Virus record (IMG/VR): IMGVR_UViG_3300017437_000021
Coordinates: 1 to 20,398 of that record
Strand: one strand, 5' to 3'
Origin: a virus
Length of the DNA stretch: 20,398 nucleotides
Translations under genes and position numbers: made by a program
Notes under the pieces: model-generated
The model's input: the letters and a program-made list of their open reading frames with translations, nothing else
Told to the model about the DNA's origin: nothing
Databases searched by the model: none
In this document: piece by piece, positions 10,454 through 18,902 of the stretch
Layout: each line of letters opens with the position of its first letter
Position numbering within the stretch: position 1 is the stretch's first letter

Positions 10454-11100
10454 GCCGTGTCCGGCTCGGATCCGTTCGGGAGCACGCCCGTTTCCGCGCT
10501 GGTCTTGACGCGGGCCAGGCGCTCGATCATCCCCGAGAGCTCCGTCGTCCGCGTATGCACGGATTGCTCACGTGCGTAGTCGGACTCGGTGAATGCGTTA
10601 CGGAGCCACGTCTGGTAGAACGCCGTTTTCAGCCGCGGATCACGGGCGCAGGCCACGAGTAGCGCATGCGCGCCCGGGCTTGGTGCCGCCTCGACCGGGA
10701 TGCGATCGAATGGAGCCCCCATGTGCTGGTAGACCCACTCCGCGTCCCGCACGGGAGTCGTGTGGCAGTCGCGCGCCAGTTGCATGATGGTTGATGCGGT
10801 CGGGGTCCGATACCGCTTGGCCGATCGCGCGTCCGCCGGCTCGGGATCGGCGTCAACAACGGCCGGCGCGTCCGCTACGGGGTCCGGCGCGTCCGCTACG
10901 GGGTCCGGCGCGTCCGCTACGGGGTCCGGCTCGGGCTCGGTGGGATGGGCGATACCGAGCAGTTGGGGCTCGATCTCGGCACGGGCCATAGTTTCGGCCT
11001 CGGCTGGCGAGGTGCCCGATGCTATCCAGTGGGCCACGAGCTCGCCATAAGCGGCCGTAAGACCGGCACAGGCGAGTCGGATGGCCCAGTCGTCGGTCAT
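10450..11100 (-). CDS. Putative small terminase subunit / TerL-partner protein with DPVADAP repeats
   Basis: 216 residues, ATG at 11100, overlapping the recombinase stop by 4 bases and the TerL start by 4 bases. An N-terminal helical segment (AIRLACAGLTAAYGELVAHWIASGTSPAEAETMARAEI) is joined by an acidic Pro/Asp-rich linker, containing three identical DPVADAP heptapeptides, to a helical C-terminal domain (EWVYQHMGAPFDRIPVEAAPSPGAHALLVACARDPRLKTAFYQTWL). The gene directly before terL often encodes the DNA-recognising small terminase; an N-terminal helix-turn-helix is possible but not clear. The ADAPSPGA-like motif recurs in proteins upstream of terL in other phages. The role is inferred from position. 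Confidence 0.55.
   Translation of the reverse strand: MTDDWAIRLACAGLTAAYGELVAHWIASGTSPAEAETMARAEIEPQLLGIAHPTEPEPDPVADAPDPVADAPDPVADAPAVVDADPEPADARSAKRYRTPTASTIMQLARDCHTTPVRDAEWVYQHMGAPFDRIPVEAAPSPGAHALLVACARDPRLKTAFYQTWLRNAFTESDYAREQSVHTRTTELSGMIERLARVKTSAETGVLPNGSEPDTA
10865..10927 (-). repeat. 21-bp perfect tandem repeat, three copies, inside the TerS-like gene
   Basis: Three consecutive identical 21-base units (10865-10885, 10886-10906, 10907-10927). Because 21 is a multiple of three, each encodes one DPVADAP heptapeptide of the linker. Identity at every base, including synonymous positions, implies recent expansion by slippage or recombination. Copy number may vary between related phages. 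Confidence 0.9.
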
Positions 11101-11879
11101 GCGCTATCGGACGGTGGGATCGGAACCGGAATGCGGGCGCGCTCCATCCATTTTCGCACGGAGTTGGCTTCGATCCATTTCCCTTTCCGCGTGCGGAATC
11201 CTTCCTTGCTCAGTTGCCGCGCCACGTCCGCGACGGTCATTTCACCGGCCAGGTGGACATCGTACAACTCGATCAGCCGATGGAGTAGCGGTTGCTCTTT
11301 CGGATCGGGGATGAGCCTGCCCTTGCGGTCCTTCTTGTACCCGATTCTCGTGATGCCCGTTGCAGGATAGCCCCGTGCCGTGCGTGCGGCCAGCGCCGCC
11401 TTGATCCGGTCGCTAATGGTGGCGCGTTCCCACTGGGCGACCGCGCCGAGGATATGGAGCACGAGTCGCCCGCTCGCGGTAGACGTGTCGAACTGCTCGG
11501 TCACGGACAGCAGGCTCCAGCCGTGTTTCTCGGCATGCTCCAGGACGTGCAACAGGTCCTTGAGGTTGCGCGTCAGCCGGTCCAGGCGCGCCACGAGCAG
11601 CCCCTCTGCCTGATGGGCCTTGAGCGCCTCGAGTGCGGCCAGCGCGCCCGGGCGATTCGCTATCTTGCGCCCGGAAAGTGCGGGATCCACGATCACGCGA
11701 GCGATGGTGTGGCCGTAGAGTCCGCAGTAGCGGCCGCATTGATCACGTTGCGCCTCGATCGAGTACGCGCTGGCCTGTTCTTCGGTCGAACACCGGCAGT
11801 AGAGGATCACGGAGAGCGGCCGCGTGTGCGCTGAATAGGCGCCCTGAACTCCCCAGGGGGTCACGATGAGATCAGGCAT
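11097..11879 (-). CDS. Serine recombinase (resolvase/invertase-type catalytic domain)
   Basis: 260 residues from ATG at 11879; a TTG 24 bases upstream is a less likely start. The resolvase catalytic domain spans about residues 24-165: YCRCSTEEQ with Arg29 and nucleophile Ser31, SIEAQ, the conserved GLLVARLDRLTRN with Asp100, Arg101 and Arg104, and the SASGRLVLHILGAVAQWERATISDRI E-helix region (here STASGR). The C-terminal 90 residues have a basic linker and a helix-turn-helix-like element (TVADVARQLSKEGFRTRKGKWIEANSVRKWM). The enzyme cuts both strands via Ser-DNA links. Length fits a resolvase or small integrase, not a large serine integrase. It overlaps both neighbours, so it is co-transcribed with the terminase genes. 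Confidence 0.88.
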   Translation of the reverse strand: MPDLIVTPWGVQGAYSAHTRPLSVILYCRCSTEEQASAYSIEAQRDQCGRYCGLYGHTIARVIVDPALSGRKIANRPGALAALEALKAHQAEGLLVARLDRLTRNLKDLLHVLEHAEKHGWSLLSVTEQFDTSTASGRLVLHILGAVAQWERATISDRIKAALAARTARGYPATGITRIGYKKDRKGRLIPDPKEQPLLHRLIELYDVHLAGEMTVADVARQLSKEGFRTRKGKWIEANSVRKWMERARIPVPIPPSDSA

Positions 11880-12441
11880 GGCGTGGCCGGTTCCAGATGG
11901 CAAGCGCCTCGGCCCATGTCAGGGTCTGGAGCGTCTGCCGTGTCAACCCGCGCTCGCAGAGATCACGGAGCACGTCCTTGCCTGATTCCGTTGCGAGCCA
12001 GCGCCCCGGCCGGTCGTCGCAGCTATCGGACGGGATGGGTCGTTCCCACAAGGCGACCATCTCCAGGTGGTTCGCGGCGGACTCGATGGTGCTCACCACG
12101 GTAGCCGGAGCCGTATCGCCCCGGGCGCGGAGCCATGCCGCAATGGCCTCCATGAGTTGGAGGTCCGGGTCCAGATCATCGGGCAAGGGGATTACGTCCG
12201 CGTCGGGCTCCACGTCGCCGGCCGCGCAGTCACATGGCATCCCATGCCCGTAGACAGTAACCAGCGTGTAGCAGTCCATACCGGAGTCCGGGTGACAGAG
12301 CGGTTTGGGCTCGGGGTCGCAGATACCCGCGTTGCCGCGCATGGGCATGCCGCAATGCGCACAGATGGGGAGCTCGCCGGGGGCCTCCCAAACTACCGGG
12401 TCGTCCGGCCCGCCACCCGGCCTGTCACTGGCATGTGCCAT
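11872..12441 (-). CDS. Cysteine-rich hypothetical phage protein with N-terminal zinc motif
   Basis: 189 residues from ATG at 12441, with GGTGA 5 bases upstream and an AGGAGG further up. The longer reading upstream overlaps the DUF6745 gene and is rejected. A putative zinc-binding region at about residues 25-75 has CAHCGMPM, then LCHPDSGMDCYTLVTVYGHGMPCDC; this CxxC...LCHPD...DCYxLVTVYGH layout is familiar from GC-rich actinobacteriophage proteins of unknown role. The C-terminal 110 residues are helical (DDLDPDLQLMEAIAAWLRARG; LTRQTLQTLTWAEALAIW). It overlaps the recombinase start by 8 bases. The function is unknown. Confidence 0.68.
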   Translation of the reverse strand: MAHASDRPGGGPDDPVVWEAPGELPICAHCGMPMRGNAGICDPEPKPLCHPDSGMDCYTLVTVYGHGMPCDCAAGDVEPDADVIPLPDDLDPDLQLMEAIAAWLRARGDTAPATVVSTIESAANHLEMVALWERPIPSDSCDDRPGRWLATESGKDVLRDLCERGLTRQTLQTLTWAEALAIWNRPRHA

Positions 12442-12458: not shown

Positions 12459-13910
12459 CTAGACCTCGGCCCGGCACCGATCCTCGGTGAGACCGGCGCA
12501 GAGCGCCTCGTGCGCCTCGCGGCACGTCGCCGCATCCGGCGGGACGAGCATGTAGTAGACGCGCGGCGTGGACCCGTCGGACGCCACGAGCCAGCGTTGC
12601 CCCTCCCGGTCCTGCAGCAGCGCCCGCGTGATCGCGGGCCGCCCCGGCGTACGCCGCACGCTGTCCATGTGGATGAGCTTGGCGCCCGTAGCGGCGAGGT
12701 AGCGCCCCTCACCGAACCGCTGACGCATGACGCGCCGTACCTCCGCGTTCGGCTCGGCGTGGATCGCCTCTACCGTGATGGTCTCGGGTGTCTCGACAAT
12801 CCATGCCGGGACGCGCACCCCGTGGACCGCGTAGAGGGCGGAACCGTCACGCCACAAACAAAACGGTCCGTCGTCTGCGTGCGGCCGCCGCTGGTCGTCC
12901 ACGGCGAGCCGGGTGGGGAAGTCGGAGATCAGGCAGAAGTCCGGGTGGATGATCCGTGGTCCCGCGTGGCGGCAGAGCACCTCGTAATGGTTCCATGCCG
13001 CGTAGTCGATCGGGAGTTGCGCGACGTAGCGGAAGAACGTCATGTAGGCGCACCAGCCGGCCCACTGGTTGCCACCGTGCCACATGCGGGAGAACGACGC
13101 CGCGCAGCCCAACCCAAACGCCGGGTCGCCAAAACACGCGGCCACACGGCCCATTCGTGCCAGCCCGGGTACGACATACCACGTCGCCTGGCGCGTCGCC
13201 TCGTCGGTCGCCGTGTAGGTCGCCGCGCGCGTCGCCTCGACGGTCGCATCGTAGGCCGCCTGGCGCGTCGCCTCGTCCGTCGCCGCGCCCGTCGCCTCGA
13301 ATGTCGCCGCGCTCGTCGCCGCGAAGGTCGCCGCGAAGGTCGCCGCGTCGGTCGCCTGGCGCGTCGCCGTATCGATCGCCTGGAGCGTCGCCGCGTCGGT
13401 CGCCTGGCGCGTCGCCTCGAAGGTCGCCGCGTCCGTCGCCTGGCGCGTCGCCTCGCGCGTCGCCGTATCGATCGCCTGGAGCGTCGCCGCGTCGGTCGCC
13501 TGGCGCGTCGCCTCGAAGGTCGCCGCGTAGGTCGCCGCGTAGGTCGCCTCGAAGGTCGCCGCGTCGGTCGCCTGGCGCGTCGCCGCGTCGGTCGCCGCGT
13601 CGGTCGCCGTGTAGGTCGCCTCGCGCGTCGCCTCGTAGGTCGCCGCGCGAGTCGTCGCCTTCTTCTGATGCCACCAGCCCGCCGCGAAGCCGCCCGCGAA
13701 GGCCGCAACGAACGGGCTAGGAACGAACACGATGCGCTCGTCCGGGGGCGGGACCAGTCCCGCCGCGCGGTACATCCCACGCACCGCCGCCCGGCACATC
13801 GCGCGCTCCTCGCCGGTCATGGGCGCCGTGCGCATCGCCACGTCGATCCACTGGTCACGCCACTCCCCGAACCGGGCGCGGTGCGCGTCCGTCAGGCTGT
13901 AGAGGTCCAA
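12459..13910 (-). CDS. DUF6745-type protein with 40-unit xATx tetrapeptide array
   Basis: 483 residues from a TTG at 13910, 3 bases after the partner gene, with GAGGA about 8 bases upstream. Residues 1-60 are helical; 60-84 include a small Gly/Ala/Phe-rich hydrophobic patch (FVAAFAGGFAAGWW) that could be a weak membrane segment. Residues 85-244 are about 40 tandem tetrapeptides of the form [A/E/Q/T]-A-T-[D/R/Y/F/L]. Residues 245-483 match the DUF6745 pattern I know: NQWAGWCAYMTFF, DDGPFCLWRDGSALYAVHGVRVPAWIVE, ITVEAIHAEPNAEVRRVMRQRFGEGRYL and KLIHMD. DUF6745 proteins are widespread in bacteria and have no established biochemical function. The expanded array is the unusual part. Confidence 0.8.
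   Translation of the reverse strand: MDLYSLTDAHRARFGEWRDQWIDVAMRTAPMTGEERAMCRAAVRGMYRAAGLVPPPDERIVFVPSPFVAAFAGGFAAGWWHQKKATTRAATYEATREATYTATDAATDAATRQATDAATFEATYAATYAATFEATRQATDAATLQAIDTATREATRQATDAATFEATRQATDAATLQAIDTATRQATDAATFAATFAATSAATFEATGAATDEATRQAAYDATVEATRAATYTATDEATRQATWYVVPGLARMGRVAACFGDPAFGLGCAASFSRMWHGGNQWAGWCAYMTFFRYVAQLPIDYAAWNHYEVLCRHAGPRIIHPDFCLISDFPTRLAVDDQRRPHADDGPFCLWRDGSALYAVHGVRVPAWIVETPETITVEAIHAEPNAEVRRVMRQRFGEGRYLAATGAKLIHMDSVRRTPGRPAITRALLQDREGQRWLVASDGSTPRVYYMLVPPDAATCREAHEALCAGLTEDRCRAEV
13179..13658 (-). repeat. 12-bp-period tandem array (about 40 units) encoding xATx tetrapeptides
   Basis: The stretch has a strict 12-base period with the constant hexamer GTCGCC on the + strand and variable bases between. 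It lies wholly inside the DUF6745 gene. A 72-base exact direct duplication (13361-13432 and 13457-13528, offset 96 bases = 8 units) shows that blocks of units expand together. Variable positions mostly alter the last residue of each unit (D, R, Y, F, L). The period and lack of stops keep all six frames open, producing long spurious frames. Confidence 0.92.
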
Positions 13911-13913
13911 CGG

Positions 13914-14297
13914 CTAGTCCTCCACCGCGCGCCGCGTCTGCATGTCGAGCTGGCGCACCACGCGGAACGTGCCGGCCGGCAGCGCGAGATGCGCGTGCTC
14001 CGGGTGCCGCAGCGTCCACCCGGCCGCCGAGACCACGACGATTTCGCCGCCGACCCTGTCCGCCTCGAAAACCTGCGCCGGGGTGCCGGCGACGTGGCGC
14101 GCCCCAACCGAGGTCCCATCTACGAGCTGCGCACGCCGCCGCGCGCCACGCGGGACGCCGTCCGGCACCCGCTCCAAGTACACATCCCCCTGGCGCACCC
14201 ACTCCCCCAACGCCAGGGCGACAATCCCGACAGGCTCCACCTGCGCCCCGCCTGCCTCCCGCGCGATCCGCTCCACCACCTCGCCCACGCTCATCAT
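13914..14297 (-). CDS. Small DUF6745-associated protein
   Basis: 127 residues from ATG at 14297, with AGGAG 7 bases upstream; the second codon is also ATG. It overlaps the DUF3560 stop by 4 bases and ends 3 bases before the DUF6745 gene. It begins MMSVGEVVERIAREAGG and has a GEWVRQGDVYLERV motif, then QLVDGTSVGARHVA, and finishes with RHPEHAHLALPAGTFRVVRQLDMQ. I recall the QGDVxLxRV / HPEHAxLxLPAGxxRVVxQ pattern in small proteins encoded next to DUF6745 genes in bacteria, so the two probably work as a pair. The fold is probably a small beta-barrel; biochemical function is unknown. Confidence 0.7.
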   Translation of the reverse strand: MMSVGEVVERIAREAGGAQVEPVGIVALALGEWVRQGDVYLERVPDGVPRGARRRAQLVDGTSVGARHVAGTPAQVFEADRVGGEIVVVSAAGWTLRHPEHAHLALPAGTFRVVRQLDMQTRRAVED

Positions 14298-14998
14298 GTC
14301 CGTTCTCCTGGTGTACCACACATGTACCACACCGCTCTGGCGGCGTCCAGTGCCGGGGTTACTGGATTCCCGCCGGCAGCTTCGCCCGCTCTCCCGACCA
14401 CGACCCCGCCGCCCTGCTCGGCCGCTGCCGTGCGCCCCCGGCGTCTCTCGATCTCCTCGATGCGCTCCTTGTCCCGCCGGATGCTCGCCCGGAGACCCGT
14501 CGTGTCCAGCGGGGTGTTGAGCCACGGGCACAGGCGCATCGTATCGGCGATGGTCTTGGCCAGCGCCTCGCTCACCAGTCCCGCGGCCACGAGCGAGGCC
14601 AGGTCGCCCCTGCTCTTGCGCCACGCCTTGTTGATGGCGGCGTACCGTTCGGCCTGCGCTTCGCGCTCCTCGATCCGCTCGTGCAGCGCCTCGACGGCGT
14701 CCTCGTCATCACTGAACACGCTGCGGTCCAGCGCCCGCTCGATCTCGTCGGCCTTGGAGTCATGCTCCTTGGCCTTGGCCATCGACTCGCACCCAGCGTG
14801 CATGCCGGCGTCCATCCGCGCCAGGTCCCGGCGGTGCCGCTTCTCCGAGTGATGCCCGACGAGCACCGGCTGGCCGAACGGGATTGACTGTGCGATCTCG
14901 TCCGCTCGGCCGAATGCCGCCTCCGCCCTGACCCGCCGGCCCTCCGCCCATGCACGCCGCCTTTCGAGCCGCCACTCCAACCTCTCACGCCTGGTCAT
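14294..14998 (-). CDS. DUF3560 family protein
   Basis: 234 residues from ATG at 14998 with AGGAGG 6 bases upstream. The protein is almost wholly helical and charged. Diagnostic stretches are RAEAAFGRADEIAQSIPFGQPVLVGHHSEKRHRRDLARMDAGM and ALDRSVFSDDEDAVEALHERIEEREAQAERYAAINKAWRK, which match the DUF3560 family (plasmid, phage and genomic-island proteins with an IPxGQPILVGHHSExRHRRD motif). The family is often carried by mobile elements; its biochemistry is not established. Long coiled-coil potential suggests oligomerisation. The gene overlaps the next one by 4 bases. Confidence 0.85.
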   Translation of the reverse strand: MTRRERLEWRLERRRAWAEGRRVRAEAAFGRADEIAQSIPFGQPVLVGHHSEKRHRRDLARMDAGMHAGCESMAKAKEHDSKADEIERALDRSVFSDDEDAVEALHERIEEREAQAERYAAINKAWRKSRGDLASLVAAGLVSEALAKTIADTMRLCPWLNTPLDTTGLRASIRRDKERIEEIERRRGRTAAAEQGGGVVVGRAGEAAGGNPVTPALDAARAVWYMCGTPGERT

Positions 14999-15033
14999 TT
15001 GCGTCCTCCTCGAAGTAACCTCAGTGTCGGCCC

Positions 15034-15054
15034 GGGCGGGTTGCGAGCCCGCCC
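15034..15054 (-). terminator. GC hairpin between DUF6573 and DUF3560 genes
   Basis: Perfect 7-bp stem GGGCGGG/CCCGCCC around a 7-base loop, 17 bases after the DUF6573 stop on the minus strand. No T-tract follows. It could attenuate read-through or protect the 3' end of the upstream message; as a terminator it is only plausible. Confidence 0.45.
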
Positions 15055-15071
15055 ACAGGGACGCCCCGGAC

Positions 15072-15482
15072 CTAGTCCTCATCCGGGAGCATGACCGTAA
15101 CTACGGGGTCGAGCGTGTCGCCGGGACCACACACCGCCTGCAACTCCACCGCGCGAGCCTGCACCCCACGCCCCTCGCGCGGCACCCGCAGCACGCGGTA
15201 GAGCAGCCGGTCGCCACGGCATCGGCTCATCGCGCACCGGAGCATCCACACCACGTCATGCCCACGGCCCCGTTCGCTCTGCCCGGTGCCGCAGGGCTTG
15301 CGCTGCTCATCTGATTCCGTCCAGGCGATCACGGACTCCCATACCGCCCGCGTCACCGCGACCGGATACCGGATCCCAACCTCGCGCGCCCACTCGGACA
15401 CGTCCACGAGCTGCCCATCGTCCAAGGCCATCGCCCGCGTGTAGACCGAGATCGGCTCGCCCCAAAACGCCACGTCGTTCAT
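15072..15482 (-). CDS. DUF6573 family protein
   Basis: 136 residues from ATG at 15482; the GGGAGGGTG box of leader cassette A lies 3-4 bases upstream, which decides this start over an in-frame upstream ATG inside the cassette. The protein has EPISVYTRAMALDDGQLVDVSEWAREVGIRYPVAVTRAVWESVIAW, then VVWMLRCAM, YRVLRVPR and a C-terminal LQAVCGPGDTLDPVVTVMLPDED. This order is the DUF6573 pattern, found in plasmid and phage proteins of unknown function. Typical length is similar, so it appears complete. No enzyme motif is visible. Confidence 0.8.
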   Translation of the reverse strand: MNDVAFWGEPISVYTRAMALDDGQLVDVSEWAREVGIRYPVAVTRAVWESVIAWTESDEQRKPCGTGQSERGRGHDVVWMLRCAMSRCRGDRLLYRVLRVPREGRGVQARAVELQAVCGPGDTLDPVVTVMLPDED

Positions 15483-15526
15483 GACACCCTCCCAGGTTTG
15501 GGTCCGCAATGTACTACGCCAGCACA
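15483..15526 (-). promoter_or_regulatory. Leader cassette A (core + SD box) for DUF6573 gene
   Basis: Contains the 19-base core TGTGCTGGCGTAGTACATT (minus strand, 15526-15508) and the SD box CAAACCTGGGAGGGTG (15500-15485), only 7 bases apart. Both blocks are identical to those of cassette C at 17085-17141, where the separation is 22 bases. Each block is upstream of a start codon. TACATT could act as a -10 element; no convincing conserved -35 is seen. Confidence 0.6.
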
Positions 15527-15542
15527 CCCGGCCGTGTCGGCC

Positions 15543-15565
15543 CGGCCGGGGTGATTCCCCGGCCG
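15543..15565 (-). terminator. Strong GC hairpin after the 15573-15818 gene
   Basis: Perfect 9-bp inverted repeat CGGCCGGGG/CCCCGGCCG with a 5-base loop, 7 bases after the stop codon on the minus strand and just before cassette A. It lacks a T-tract but would form a very stable hairpin in RNA. Together with cassette A it makes a terminator-then-new-leader arrangement, repeated at 17147-17164. Confidence 0.55.
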
Positions 15566-15572
15566 CGCCCCG

Positions 15573-15818
15573 CTAGCTCTCCCACTCGACCCGCCCGTCC
15601 CGGCACGGGTCGTACCGCGGCATCGCGCGCCCCCGGCAGTCGGGACAGTGCATGTGCACGGGCTCGCCGCGCATCTCATCCCCGATCACGGTCCCGAAGT
15701 CGGCACACCGCTCGCAGCGCGGCGCCGCGTCCGGGCACCAGTAGCTCGTTTCCTCACCGTGGTAGACCGGGTCTGGATCGGGCATCCGACGCCAGGCGCC
15801 ATTCACGGGCCGCGCCAT
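15573..15818 (-). CDS. Small cysteine-rich (zinc-ribbon-like) protein
   Basis: 81 residues from ATG at 15818, which immediately follows the upstream TAG (TAGATG), suggesting coupled translation. Cysteines are arranged as ...YWCPDAAPRCERCADFG... and ...HMHCPDCRGRAMPRYDPC..., two CxxC knuckles that could form one zinc ribbon. There is no further domain. Short proteins like this in phage early regions often bind nucleic acid or host proteins, but the role here is not known. Confidence 0.65.
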   Translation of the reverse strand: MARPVNGAWRRMPDPDPVYHGEETSYWCPDAAPRCERCADFGTVIGDEMRGEPVHMHCPDCRGRAMPRYDPCRDGRVEWES

Positions 15819-16109
15819 CTAGCGCTCCTCCTCCGCCCGAGCGCAGGCGGTTTCGATGTACCGGCGGACCTCGGCCTCACCCGCCCCGATGTGCGCCTCC
15901 AGGGCGGCCTCGCGCACCGCGTCCAGCGAGAGGCGCGCGTACTCCTCGCGCCCGTGCTCCTGGTCGTAGTCACCTCCCTGCGCGCTGCCCCAGACGATGA
16001 GGAGGCAGTACCCTCGCCCCGCGCGGAACACCTCCACGTCGAGGTAGGTGTGCCCGGGCACGTGGCCGTACGGCCGGCCAGCAAAACCGATGCTCTTCAC
16101 CTTGGCCAT
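15819..16109 (-). CDS. Hypothetical small protein (96 aa)
   Basis: ATG at 16109 preceded by GGAGGGTG 4 bases upstream (leader cassette B). The N-terminal half is beta-like (YLDVEVFRAGRGYCLLIVWG) and the C-terminal half helical and acidic (EEYARLSLDAVREAALEAHIGAGEAEVRRYIETACARAEEER). No family is recognised. It is followed directly by the zinc-ribbon gene with no spacer, so the two are likely translated together. Confidence 0.65.
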   Translation of the reverse strand: MAKVKSIGFAGRPYGHVPGHTYLDVEVFRAGRGYCLLIVWGSAQGGDYDQEHGREEYARLSLDAVREAALEAHIGAGEAEVRRYIETACARAEEER

Positions 16110-16151
16110 GCTTCACCCTCCAGTTGGTGTGTTACCTACGCTCGCCCACCC
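16110..16151 (-). promoter_or_regulatory. Leader cassette B, overlapping the end of the upstream gene
   Basis: On the minus strand, GGGTGGGCGAGCGTAG (16151-16136) precedes a GGAGGGTG SD box before the ATG at 16109. The same 16 bases occur at 17523-17508 in cassette D. Here the block is also the coding end of the 16132-16362 gene, so the shared element spans coding and leader DNA. Confidence 0.4.
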
Positions 16152-16362
16152 TCGCCCCGGTCCGCCACTCCGCGATGCGCCGCTCCGCTTCCGCCGTCGC
16201 CGCGCGGTTCAACGCCGCGATTTCCTCGGCCTCGTCGTCGGTCGGCAACGGCCACGCCCACCAGCCGCCGAGTACCTCCTCGGCCGTCTCGTGCACATAC
16301 CCGCCCAGATCCGGGCGCAGTCCGTACACGAACGCTCCCAGGTTGCTGACGTGGTAGCTCAT
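16132..16362 (-). CDS. Hypothetical small protein (76 aa)
   Basis: ATG at 16362 with GGAGGA 5 bases upstream decides the start; the much longer open frame upstream is Arg/Gly-rich shadow. The sequence MSYHVSNLGAFVYGLRPDLGGYVHETAEEVLGGWW is followed by an acidic helix (DDEAEEIAALNRAATAEAERRIAEW). No family is recognised. The 110 bases upstream (16363-16472) hold no gene. Confidence 0.6.
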   Translation of the reverse strand: MSYHVSNLGAFVYGLRPDLGGYVHETAEEVLGGWWAWPLPTDDEAEEIAALNRAATAEAERRIAEWRTGARVGERR

Positions 16363-16472
16363 TGCAGTCCTCCGCTTCTCCGTTGAAAGCGCCCGGCTCG
16401 CGCGCCGATGGTGCCGGGCAACCCCTGGATAGCGAGCAGGCCTCGCAGGTGTCCGCTCGCAGGCGCTTTTGC

Positions 16473-16700
16473 CTAGTCGTCCTCGCTCGCCTCCATTGCC
16501 TCCTGCTCTACCTGGCCGAATCGGCCGACCCACGGCGCCTTGGTGGGCACCAGGAACGCCGCGCCGCTGCGGGCGCACTCCGCGCACAAGTGCGCTGATT
16601 CCAAGAGCACGCCGTTCAGCGTGGTCACCGAAGCGATCACACACGCCGGCGCCTCTTCGCAGTCATCGCAGATGACGAGGACGCGCTCTTGCTTGGTCAC
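16473..16700 (-). CDS. Small two-knuckle zinc-ribbon-like protein
   Basis: 75 residues from GTG at 16700, one base after the preceding stop, with a GAGG box about 9 bases upstream. It reads VLVICDDCEEAPACVIASV...SAHLCAECARSGAAFLVP: two CxxC pairs 24 residues apart with beta strands between, a common phage zinc-ribbon layout. The C-terminal tail is acidic. A nucleic-acid or protein adaptor role is possible; function is unknown. Confidence 0.65.
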   Translation of the reverse strand: MTKQERVLVICDDCEEAPACVIASVTTLNGVLLESAHLCAECARSGAAFLVPTKAPWVGRFGQVEQEAMEASEDD

Positions 16701-16701
16701 T

Positions 16702-17082
16702 TTAGTCGTCCTCGCTCCGGTCGTAGCCGTCATGCGTGCACCCCACCTGGCCGCACTCACCGCAGTAGTCGCGCCGATCCAGCGGGATCAGGTCGTCAGG
16801 GTCGACCAGGTGTCGCCGGTCATCCCCGACCATCACCGCGACCACCCGCCCACCCACGTTCGGGACCCACTCGCTCTCTCCCGTCTCCTGCTCGTACTCC
16901 TGGCCGTCCTCGTCGATCATCAACGCCGTGTTCGGCTCCCACCTCGGCTCCCACCCGAGGAGCCGAAAAGCCACACCATCCAACCCGCGCACGCGCACGC
17001 GGTATGCCGCGTCAAAGTCGAGCTCACCGCCCGACCATCGCACCACACCATACACGCACTCCACGTTGTCCTTGCGCACCAT
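16702..17082 (-). CDS. Hypothetical protein with C-terminal cysteine cluster
   Basis: 126 residues from ATG at 17082, chosen because the conserved GGGAGGGTG box of cassette C lies immediately upstream; the 20 extra residues of the longer frame are the cassette itself. Beta-rich body (YRVRVRGLDGVAFRLLGWE; WVPNVGGRVVAVMVGDDRRHLVDPDDLIPL) followed by RRDYCGECGQVGCTHDGYD, a CxxC...CxH metal-binding candidate. No family recognised. Confidence 0.65.
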   Translation of the reverse strand: MVRKDNVECVYGVVRWSGGELDFDAAYRVRVRGLDGVAFRLLGWEPRWEPNTALMIDEDGQEYEQETGESEWVPNVGGRVVAVMVGDDRRHLVDPDDLIPLDRRDYCGECGQVGCTHDGYDRSEDD

Positions 17083-17141
17083 TGCACCCTCCCAGGTTTG
17101 TAGGGCCGCACCGGGCGGCCCGAATGTACTACGCCAGCACA
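17083..17141 (-). promoter_or_regulatory. Leader cassette C (core, hairpin, SD box)
   Basis: Minus-strand order: core TGTGCTGGCGTAGTACATT (17141-17123), a perfect 7-bp hairpin GGGCCGC/GCGGCCC with 5-base loop (17121-17103), then CAAACCTGGGAGGGTG (17100-17085) and ATG at 17082. The core and SD blocks are identical to cassette A; the hairpin is an insertion between them. Confidence 0.6.
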
Positions 17142-17146
17142 AGCCC

Positions 17147-17164
17147 GGCCCGGGCGCCCCGGCC
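17147..17164 (-). terminator. GC hairpin after the TGA-interrupted frame
   Basis: GGCC(C)GGG-CGC-CCCGGCC, a 7-bp stem with one bulged base, lying a few bases after the TAG at 17169 and just before cassette C. The arrangement stop codon, hairpin, cassette matches that at 15543-15573, which suggests the functional end of the upstream gene is the TAG at 17169, not the earlier TGA. No T-tract. Confidence 0.45.
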
Positions 17165-17168
17165 GGCC

Positions 17169-17297
17169 CTACTGGCCGCTATACGCCGCGTCCAGGTCGT
17201 CACTCGCGTCGATGTCCAGCCGCAGCGGATCGACCACACCATCACCCGACAACGCGTAATCACCCTCACGCGGCCCACGGGCCGCGCATTCCTCGCC
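17169..17297 (-). other. In-frame continuation (42 codons) after the TGA of the zinc-ribbon gene
   Basis: Open from the TGA at 17298 to a TAG at 17169, with codon use like the neighbouring genes and an acidic tail (DPLRLDIDASDDLDAAYSGQ). It is followed at once by a GC hairpin and cassette C, the normal gene-end arrangement here. Could be the lost C-terminus of a gene with a recent nonsense change, a read-through extension, or a coincidental open frame. A hairpin CGCGGC-CCGTGG-GCCGCG (17286-17269) starts 11 bases after the TGA. Confidence 0.4.
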
Positions 17298-17474
17298 TCA
17301 CGCGGCGCACAAGACACCCATCCGCCACCCGTCGTCCGGGTCCCACCAGCGCACCGCCTGCGGCACCAGATCCGACTCGTCCCGGGTCCCACAGACCCCG
17401 CAGTACCCAGCGCCCCACCACCGGGACAGGCCGTACGTCCGCAGACCCGGACCCGGCTCGTGCTTCCGCGTCAT
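17298..17474 (-). CDS. Small zinc-ribbon-like protein, ends at an unexpected in-frame TGA
   Basis: 58 residues from ATG at 17474, with AGGAGGGAGAAG directly upstream. It has GYCGVCGTRDESDLVPQAVRWWDPDDGW and ends at LCAA followed by TGA (17298-17300). The frame then continues GEECAARGPREGDY... to a TAG at 17169. Reading the TGA as Cys would restore LCAACGEEC, giving the second CxxC expected by analogy with the LCAEC knuckle of the 16473-16700 gene. As a conventional gene it is a truncated ribbon; see the continuation entry. Too short and interrupted to be obvious to automated callers, but start, SD and codon use are good. Confidence 0.55.
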   Translation of the reverse strand: MTRKHEPGPGLRTYGLSRWWGAGYCGVCGTRDESDLVPQAVRWWDPDDGWRMGVLCAA

Positions 17475-17523
17475 CTTCTCCCTCCTTGTTTGTGGAAATC
17501 TACCCTACTACGCTCGCCCACCC
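17475..17523 (-). promoter_or_regulatory. Leader cassette D
   Basis: Contains GGGTGGGCGAGCGTAG (17523-17508), shared exactly with cassette B, then TAGGGTAGATT and AGGAGGGAGAAG before the ATG at 17474. The TAGATT could be a -10 element. It is the most divergent cassette: no hairpin and a standard AGGAGG. Confidence 0.4.
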
Positions 17524-17542
17524 GTCAGACGCTACGATCACA

Positions 17543-17713
17543 TCAGCGCACCCACGACCAGATCACCGCCAGACAGGACAACACCAGCCCAACCGCCGTC
17601 AGGATCTCCAGCAGCTCCACACTCACCACCACCCGCACCGGCGCCGGCGCCACAAAGCGCGGCGCACACCCGGCATCGTCCCAGTCCCGCAAGCTCCCAC
17701 TGTCACCACGCAT
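17543..17713 (-). CDS. Small single-pass membrane protein (56 aa)
   Basis: 56 residues from ATG at 17713, preceded by GGGAGGGG 4 bases upstream (cassette E). The C-terminal half, VVVSVELLEILTAVGLVLSCLAVIWSWVR, is one hydrophobic helix of about 20 residues with a terminal Arg; the N-terminal half is polar. Longer in-frame readings upstream are Arg/Gly-rich shadow. Small membrane proteins in phage accessory regions can act in exclusion or lysis control, but nothing here specifies which. Confidence 0.6.
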   Translation of the reverse strand: MRGDSGSLRDWDDAGCAPRFVAPAPVRVVVSVELLEILTAVGLVLSCLAVIWSWVR

Positions 17714-17774
17714 CGCGCCCCTCCCAGGGTTGCCGCCGCACCACCCGCGGCACAAACGGACTACGGGAGCGCAC
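17714..17774 (-). promoter_or_regulatory. Leader cassette E, overlapping the stop of the upstream gene
   Basis: Minus strand: GTGCGCTCCCGTAGTCCGTT, then GTGCCGCGGGTGGTGCGGC (stem GCCGC/GCGGC), then ACCCTGGGAGG before ATG at 17713. The TAG within the core is the stop codon of the 17761-17988 gene. Aligns closely with cassette F over its whole length. Confidence 0.5.
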
Positions 17775-17988
17775 CCAGGACGCTCACGTCCCGCACATAC
17801 CGATGATATCTCTCTTCTTCGGCGACCAGCCCTGCCACCAACCGCGCGGGCAACACCATCCGCCCGTCCCAGAACCGGACCAGGCACATCACGCCAGCCG
17901 TGACCGGATCGGCCGCAATCAGGCGCAATTCCTCCTCAGTCACGAATCCGTAGGCCGCCTGCCGGATGACCTCCCGTCCCGTCCGCAT
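17761..17988 (-). CDS. Hypothetical small protein (75 aa)
   Basis: ATG at 17988 with GGGAGGTG 4 bases upstream (cassette F). Sequence MRTGREVIRQAAYGFVTEEELRLIAADPVTAGVMCLVRFWDGRMVLPARLVAGLVAEEERYHRYV: helical, slightly acidic, with a central V/L-rich strand. No family is recognised. It is the first gene after the gene-poor region, so it would be the first product of the small-gene transcript. Confidence 0.6.
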   Translation of the reverse strand: MRTGREVIRQAAYGFVTEEELRLIAADPVTAGVMCLVRFWDGRMVLPARLVAGLVAEEERYHRYVRDVSVLGALP

Positions 17989-18046
17989 CGCACACCTCCC
18001 AGGGTCGATGGCCGCACCCGCGGCACAAACGTACTACGCCAGCTCA
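17989..18046 (-). promoter_or_regulatory. Leader cassette F
   Basis: Minus strand: TGAGCTGGCGTAGTACGTTT core (18046-18027), hairpin GCCGC-GGGT-GCGGC, ACCCTGGGAGGTG SD box, ATG at 17988. Differs from cassette A/C core by only two bases. A TTGACC lies further upstream (about 18061-18056) but at a 22-base spacing from TAGTAC. Confidence 0.55.
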
Positions 18047-18121
18047 CCCGCTCGTCCTGGTCAAGAATAGACCCCGCCCCGCATGCGGCACGCCCCCCCA
18101 GACGACCCACTACCGGCTGTG

Positions 18122-18139
18122 GTGTCGGGTTTCCGACAC
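18122..18139. promoter_or_regulatory. Inverted repeat GTGTCGG-N4-CCGACAC (operator candidate)
   Basis: Perfect 7-bp arms around GTTT. On the minus strand it reads TGTCGGAAACCCGACA, one base different from the CGGAAATCCGACA core seen at 8078-8090 and 1181-1193. It lies upstream of the first small gene. It could be an operator, or a hairpin terminator without T-tract. Confidence 0.4.
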
Positions 18140-18272
18140 ACAAGCTACTTGAGAGTATGCAGTAGTGGTGGGAGGCAACTGCCGGCGTGGTAGCGACTTG
18201 CGGAGCGGTAGGTAGGCTGGGGAAGTTAACCCGGCCCCTGGGGGGGAGCGCGCTCGGGTCCCATCTACATAG

Positions 18273-18340
18273 ACCCTGGTTCTGGGCTACAAACCCTGTT
18301 TTCGGGACCCTGTTTTCGGGTCACACAGACCGGTTTTCGG
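18273..18340. repeat. 14-bp direct repeats, four copies (two perfect)
   Basis: ACCCTGTTTTCGGG occurs exactly at 18293-18306 and 18307-18320, with degenerate copies at 18273-18286 (ACCCTGGTTCTGGG) and 18329-18340 (ACCGGTTTTCGG). Each unit has CCC...GGG ends. No coding frame explains it. Confidence 0.75.
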
Positions 18341-18355
18341 CTACGGGCCGGGCCC

Positions 18356-18397
18356 TGGTCTTGGCTCTGGTCTTGGTCTTGGTCTTGGCTCTGGTCT
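18356..18397. repeat. Hexanucleotide tandem array (TGGTCT/TGGCTC), seven units
   Basis: Seven consecutive six-base units: five TGGTCT and two TGGCTC at positions 2 and 6 of the array. Degenerate copies continue to about 18476. The + strand is purine-poor in C-rich/T-rich alternation with no A. It lies directly before the paired hairpins. Confidence 0.8.
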
Positions 18398-18410
18398 TGG
18401 ATCTATATAC

Positions 18411-18444
18411 CCGCGGCTTTAGCCGCGGTGAGCGCCGAAGGCGC
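18411..18444. repeat. Two adjacent hairpins (REP-like)
   Basis: CCGCGGC-TTTA-GCCGCGG (18411-18428) is a perfect 7-bp stem, extendable to 8; three bases later GCGCC-GAA-GGCGC (18432-18444) is a perfect 5-bp stem. A TATATA stretch lies just to the left. The double-hairpin form resembles REP palindromes or transposon-end structures; no transposase gene is present. Confidence 0.65.
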
Positions 18445-18489
18445 GATATTCTTGGCTGTTTCTTGGTCTTGTTCTTCTCTGAGCCCTGG

Positions 18490-18777
18490 TTATGCGTTTT
18501 GGAGCATAGTATCCGTTGGTCTATTTGGACTCATGTATCGGTCGCTTTGTGCGCATTGGTACGCTTTTGTTGCATGGTGTTGCATTTCATGGGTGTTTTT
18601 GGGGTGCTTTGGGTGATTTCGTGGCTCCTTCGGTTGATTTGGGTGATTCGCTGAAAAACTAAAGGTTCCCCCTGGACCCCCTCCAAAGTATATCGGCTCT
18701 TGAGAGGGGATGTCTTTGCTTCTCATGAGTTGGGTATCATACGGTAGGCCGGTATCGTTAAGAACCTCCCCCCTCAT
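18490..18777 (-). CDS. Possible small protein of atypical composition (95 aa)
   Basis: ATG at 18777 with AGGAGG 4 bases upstream, a strong SD. The sequence is Pro/Asn/His/Lys/Gln-rich (ANHPNQPKEPRNHPKHPKNTHEMQHH), reflecting A+C-rich minus-strand bases, and unlike any neighbour in codon use. There is no recognised domain. It may be a genuine foreign gene, or a chance frame in a skewed region; I lean to the latter. Confidence 0.25.
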   Translation of the reverse strand: MRGEVLNDTGLPYDTQLMRSKDIPSQEPIYFGGGPGGTFSFSANHPNQPKEPRNHPKHPKNTHEMQHHATKAYQCAQSDRYMSPNRPTDTMLQNA

Positions 18778-18814
18778 CCCCCCTCCTAAAGTTGCCGCAC
18801 ATAACGAGCACACA

Positions 18815-18828
18815 TTGACGGCCGTCAA
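18815..18828. promoter_or_regulatory. Perfect 14-bp palindrome TTGACGGCCGTCAA
   Basis: A fully symmetric dyad between the 18903-19181 gene and the low-GC segment. Dyads of this kind usually bind dimeric regulators. Only one copy is seen in the window. Confidence 0.45.
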
Positions 18829-18902
18829 CGGATGTGGCTAAGCCACGTTTTTGGGTCCAGGATGGTCCAGGGCCGATTTATGTGGGTTGGATGTGTTTGG
18901 GG

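Follow-up and report, generated by a model that had tools for sequence, protein, structure and literature searches.

Recurrent leader cassettes before unrelated small genes of one phage form a family of start-associated elements

Promoters of T7-type phage polymerases contain a conserved block of ~20 nt without -35/-10 elements, a short AT-rich melting segment, a leader hairpin and a Shine-Dalgarno (SD) sequence. The start-associated sequences (SAS) of cluster K mycobacteriophages are 13-bp elements (GGGATAGGAGCCC, with up to two deviations) located 3-9 bp before the start codon, and the extended start-associated sequences (ESAS) upstream of the SAS consist of a pair of imperfect 17-bp inverted repeats with a 4-13 bp spacer (PMC3203893, PMC11373665, PMC12699233). 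The ESAS of Adephagia has SigA-like -35 and -10 sequences spaced 17-18 bp and has been read as a putative promoter (PMC11373665). The operators and stoperators of L5-type (cluster A) phages are asymmetric, intergenic 13-nt sites, the orientation of which is tied to transcription (PMC9283540). Here, we describe six leader cassettes (A-F) before small genes of an uncultured phage, in the IMG/VR virus record IMGVR_UViG_3300017437_000021. The analyzed window is the whole record of 20,398 bases, which is probably a genome fragment.

The cores of the six cassettes represent one bipartite motif, GGGTGNGC-N3-CGTAG, which is exact in A, B, D, E and F and has two mismatches in C. All six copies are on the minus strand within 15483-18049 and end 26-47 nt ahead of an ATG, each of which has a strong SD. 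Scanning with the six-site motif, a check proposed in the initial annotation of this DNA, showed no stray copies elsewhere in the window. The motif copies are positioned as follows:

15514-15529, minus strand: cassette A motif GGGTGTGCTGGCGTAG; full 19-base core at 15508-15526
16136-16151, minus strand: cassette B motif GGGTGGGCGAGCGTAG, which falls within the coding sequence of the upstream gene (16132-16362), at its 3' end
17129-17144, minus strand: cassette C motif GCTTGTGCTGGCGTAG; full 19-base core at 17123-17141
17508-17523, minus strand: cassette D motif GGGTGGGCGAGCGTAG; ATG at 17474
17761-17776, minus strand: cassette E motif GGGTGCGCTCCCGTAG, the TAG of which is the stop codon of gene F
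18034-18049, minus strand: cassette F motif GGGTGAGCTGGCGTAG

The 19-base core TGTGCTGGCGTAGTACATT occurs exactly twice, both times on the minus strand (A and C). This core and a 16-base box had been annotated as identical before the genes at 15482 and 17082, and both the sequences and the positions were reproduced. The 16-base GGGTGGGCGAGCGTAG is indeed common to B and D, but it is another version of the same core rather than the different block it had been taken for. The pattern GGGTGNGCN3CGTAG has five exact matches compared with 0.0033 expected per strand (600 shuffles), a figure that overstates the significance because the pattern was counted after the sites were seen. The minus strand has four matches to GCGTAGTA, compared with 0.09 in shuffles. 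This count and the leader alignments nevertheless agree with the motif count.

Pairwise alignments showed clear homology among the leaders of A, C, E and F, with scores of 35 (F-E), 32 (C-A), 31 (F-C), 21 (E-C) and 20 (F-A); the highest score among 4620 shuffled pairs was 18. The A-E pair, with a score of 14, is the one of these six pairs at or below the shuffled maximum. The B-D pair taken alone is borderline (a score of 16, reached by 0.13% of shuffled pairs, with 231 pairs tested). The leaders are a real, statistically solid family of start-associated elements in one phage, and the coordinated family of start-site elements suggested in the initial annotation is supported by the single orientation, the restriction to gene starts and the absence elsewhere in the window. 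Comparison of the downstream proteins with one another showed that they are unrelated. Gene duplication was therefore rejected as the source of the cassettes, and the suggestion that they were copied with the genes did not hold. The leaders might also have no current function, having spread by duplication or recombination as a shared boundary for gene shuffling, too recently to diverge. In agreement with this, A and C align over ~80 nt with a single clean deletion of the left hairpin arm in A, and a 31-nt direct repeat brackets gene A. However, the leaders of B, D and F have diverged elsewhere yet retain GGGTGNGC and CGTAG, and the copies are located at starts only and in one orientation, without the downstream genes being duplicated along with them. 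We regard a lack of function as quite improbable.

The B and E copies of the motif overlap coding sequence, each in a different phase, and the constraint thus acts on nucleotides rather than on a peptide. Core and box could encode a conserved peptide (M-CWRST-...-QTWEG-M) at the N-terminus of longer A and C proteins, as core, box and ATG lie in one open frame in A and C, where the 15-nt spacer difference equals five codons; one longer fused DUF6573 protein is also annotated. However, the core frame is out of frame with the ATG in B, D, E and F, the GTG and TTG codons have no SD whereas the ATG has an ideal SD, and two annotated plasmid homologues of the DUF6573 protein start within a few residues of the gene A ATG. 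Such a peptide is largely refuted and retains hardly any probability.

From 5' to 3', the leaders are composed of the recognition block, a weak duplex (GTAGTACATT or equivalents), a hairpin (C, E and F), the box (A, C, E and F) and the start codon, which is about 5-7 nt after the SD. In A, C, E and F, the conservation of the box CCTGGGAGG extends past the SD; B and D combine the motif with just an ordinary SD and lack both this box and a hairpin.

15485-15500, minus strand: cassette A box CAAACCTGGGAGGGTG, containing the SD; ATG at 15482
17085-17100, minus strand: cassette C box CAAACCTGGGAGGGTG; ATG at 17082
17720-17729, minus strand: cassette E box CCCTGGGAGG; ATG at 17713
17995-18004, minus strand: cassette F box CCCTGGGAGG; ATG at 17988
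17103-17121, minus strand: cassette C hairpin GGGCCGC-CCGGT-GCGGCCC, 7-bp stem
17735-17751, minus strand: cassette E hairpin GCCGC-GGGTGGT-GCGGC, read from the sequence
18011-18024, minus strand: cassette F hairpin GCCGC-GGGT-GCGGC, read from the sequence

The core and the box are separated by 7 nt in A and 22 nt in C, and the longer spacer contains a perfect hairpin, as first annotated. The GCCGC/GCGGC stem begins exactly 3 nt past the core TT in C, E and F and is constant while the loop varies (4 nt in F, 5 nt in C and 7 nt in E). The related core, the GCCGC/GCGGC hairpin and CCCTGGGAGG ascribed to E and F are all present. However, the hairpin stability is clearly above composition in C only (reached by 0.9% of shuffles), and the E and F hairpins individually are not beyond chance; the mean stability of the three together was reached by 15 of 2000 shuffles. 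An RNA-level element, in which the leader (core, hairpin and extended SD) on an upstream transcript would tune translation, mRNA processing or stability, is consistent with the conservation of CCTGGGAGG past the SD, the stability of the C hairpin and the stem kept across the three loop lengths. However, A, B and D have no hairpin, those of E and F alone are within chance, the invariant 5-bp stem shows no covariation, and in B and D the core is retained although the box is missing. The other cassettes (E, F, B and D) have also lost the inverted repeat of the A/C core, which further led to the rejection of an N4-type hairpin promoter. No Rfam match was found, and a known RNA family was rejected on this ground. 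Overall, an RNA-level element appears unlikely.

Between 14.9 and 18.9 kb, eight intergenic gaps measure at least 20 nt; six of these contain a cassette, and no cassette is located at a gene with a smaller gap. All lie before minus-strand starts in one region, as had been claimed, with the correction that the ATG of E is at 17713. The two cassette-free gaps (before 16362 and before 14998) contain a hairpin instead, the one before 16362 being imperfect and read from the sequence. The genes and the neighboring hairpins are as follows:

15072-15482, minus strand: gene A, 136 aa, DUF6573 family (Pfam PF20213, 7.4e-25)
15819-16109, minus strand: gene B, 96 aa, no family
16702-17082, minus strand: gene C, 126 aa, no family
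17298-17474, minus strand: gene D, 58 aa, no family
17543-17713, minus strand: gene E, 56 aa
17761-17988, minus strand: gene F, 75 aa
15543-15565, minus strand: 9-bp hairpin, entirely GC, immediately past the gene that lies upstream of cassette A; it may be a terminator, although a U run is missing
15033-15055, minus strand: 8-bp hairpin after gene A, having a 31-nt direct repeat in common with the hairpin before cassette A

A further strong hairpin is located between gene D and cassette C. The strong hairpins that precede cassette A and follow genes A and D resemble those at the ends of transcription units, though without U runs. The 31-nt direct repeats (15024-15054 and 15534-15564, hairpin plus GGGCCGACAC, 77% identical) flank the DUF6573 gene and cassette A, as though the gene had been moved or acquired as a unit through recombination.

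Directly 3' of the recognition part, each leader has an easily melted segment of 6-10 nt (TACATT, TACGTT, GTAACA or TAGGGTAGATT). The weakest duplex in the six-site average starts 13 nt into the motif (-1.20 vs. a window mean of -1.61 kcal/mol per step). None of 5000 random sets of six reached this minimum, which is partly built in by the GTAG common to the sites; B and D are weak there with different bases. The motif-to-ATG distance of 26-47 nt is a normal length for a 5'-untranslated region, and the copy that gene F extends into, E, is the one with TACRTT altered to TCCGTT. The melting profile, the layout of the transcription units and the start-codon distance favor a promoter or a DNA-binding site, and the SD within the box favors a translation role for the box.

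Because the melting segment lies right after the conserved block, and because of the start-codon distance, the placement at unit boundaries and the TACRTT change in E, we read each cassette as a phage-specific promoter joined to a strong SD leader, a reading to which we give an even chance. For the RNA start at the cassettes, the identity of the recognizer and the role of the hairpin, we infer the following. The bipartite GGGTGNGC-N3-CGTAG would be recognized and the AT segment directly after it melted, with the RNA starting a few nucleotides downstream, which in C, E and F would be at or just before the GC hairpin. The hairpin could protect the 5' end of the RNA, and the strong SD would then initiate the small gene. 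The phage might encode the recognition factor, as a polymerase or sigma factor, or sigma-A might act with an activator; host sigma-A alone is an improbable candidate because -35/-10 elements are absent. Copying of the leaders among unrelated accessory genes would place these genes under one common control input.

Several observations weigh against a phage-specific promoter. None of the six cassettes has a -35/-10 pair better than those in shuffled sequence, and a host sigma-70 promoter (TTGACA-N15-19-TATAAT) was rejected on the same scores. No polymerase, sigma factor or activator was recognized among the scanned proteins of the 20-kb, probably incomplete record, and the searched collections yielded no independent homologous phage for a conservation test. 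In E and F, the weakest nearby duplex is upstream of the motif, not inside it. Better sigma-70-like sites are present upstream in non-coding blocks (18692, 18741 and 20323) and could drive all the genes as one operon. A sigma-54 promoter (GG-N10-GC; TGGC-N7-TTGC) was also rejected, with no match in the window; cassette A has TGGC-N8-TTGC, one base too long, which the other cassettes lack. That the cassettes represent a previously undescribed promoter class, with a bipartite GC-rich block read by a phage polymerase or sigma factor and a portable promoter-hairpin-SD leader drawing unrelated accessory genes into one regulon, is possible but doubtful.

Searches of viral contigs with TerL, portal and DUF6573 returned IMGVR_UViG_3300022563_000015 as the only match. 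It is 99.98% identical over 15,749 nt and thus belongs to the same phage population rather than being independent. Neither TerL nor the core-plus-box pattern matched the genome contigs, and blastn searches with the region gave no match among phages and only short matches over the DUF3560 gene among plasmids. No independent relative with a cassette was found in the viral contigs, genome contigs, phage or plasmid collections. One motif match in another viral contig (L006) was rejected as it lies inside a gene, on the opposite strand, in an A+T-rich phage. Twelve core-plus-hairpin and 17 further motif-plus-SD matches in viral contigs were rejected as well; they lie within open frames and appear fortuitous, apart from three (L030, L031 and L039). 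These three have GGGTGGGCC...GGCCCACCC (or a close variant) followed by TCCTTTTC before the start codon, which looks like a different recurrent hairpin-plus-T-run terminator that matched the motif by chance.

The terminase, the portal, the major head protein, a serine recombinase and a DUF1376 replication-type protein are all encoded on the minus strand of the window. The serine recombinase (268 aa, 11097-11903) has a Resolvase domain and a weak Recombinase domain, and its gene immediately precedes the one upstream of the large terminase. The run of small genes holding the cassettes is bordered on one side by a 914-nt non-coding block (17989-18902) and on the other by the DUF6573, DUF3560 and DUF6745 genes. 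The DUF6573 and DUF3560 genes are adjacent (14294-15482), and their nearest relatives found here are mostly plasmid-borne (Xanthomonas, Streptomyces and Burkholderia). The DUF6745 gene (12459-13910) contains a long array of 12-base tandem repeats (13180-13660) encoding a four-residue AT-x-x repeat. The 914-nt block has no family-supported gene, its GC content falls to about 51%, and it carries sigma-70-like sites (TATACT and TATGAT) and CAAGAC-type repeats. The GC skew switches sign within it, with the cumulative minimum near 18 kb, and the block may be a replication origin and early promoter region.

The main rival to the promoter reading comes from the L5-type operators. The core could be an operator- or stoperator-type site at which a phage repressor or another DNA-binding protein blocks transcription at gene starts. 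Like the L5-type 13-mer sites (PMC9283540), the core is asymmetric, located in short intergenic spaces and in one orientation relative to transcription, all six cassettes being oriented with the genes they precede, although the motif is 16 nt rather than 13 nt long. Constraint is strongest in the GC-rich bipartite GGGTGNGC/CGTAG rather than in the AT segment, and the encoded serine recombinase is compatible with a temperate phage. However, the sequence differs from that of the L5-type sites, and there are only six copies, all at starts with none away from the small-gene region, some of them joined to an SD box. No phage repressor with a helix-turn-helix or Stoperator domain was recognized in the scanned proteins of the probably fragmentary record, and an operator would need neither the common melting segment nor the SD box. 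We consider an operator somewhat unlikely.

The cassettes are similar to T7-type promoters in the conserved block without -35/-10 elements, the AT-rich melting segment and the leader hairpin with an SD. However, no phage single-subunit RNA polymerase was recognized among the scanned proteins of the 20-kb record.

The parallel with SAS/ESAS drawn in the initial annotation holds only at the level of design. In both cases, short repeats, almost all with the same orientation, immediately precede the starts of non-structural genes (Pope 2011, PMC3203893; PMC11373665), the SD-containing box is conserved past the SD, and a subset has an upstream conserved element. However, the window has no site within two mismatches of the SAS consensus (the best has three and is not at a cassette start), and inspection of the aligned leaders revealed no paired 17-bp inverted repeats as in the ESAS. 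The A/C core holds a 6-bp imperfect repeat, which is broken in the other cassettes. In contrast to the ESAS, the cassettes have one asymmetric core, no -35/-10 elements and a GC hairpin downstream of the core. No kinship to mycobacteriophages was seen, and the relationship, as judged from the sequences, is an analogy rather than membership. The role of the cluster K start-associated repeats is still unsettled, and the six natural variants described here (with or without the hairpin, with or without the box, and one with a changed core) make the promoter and translation roles separable. A second, sequence-unrelated case of the SAS-like design would suggest a general phage route for bringing newly acquired small genes under common control.

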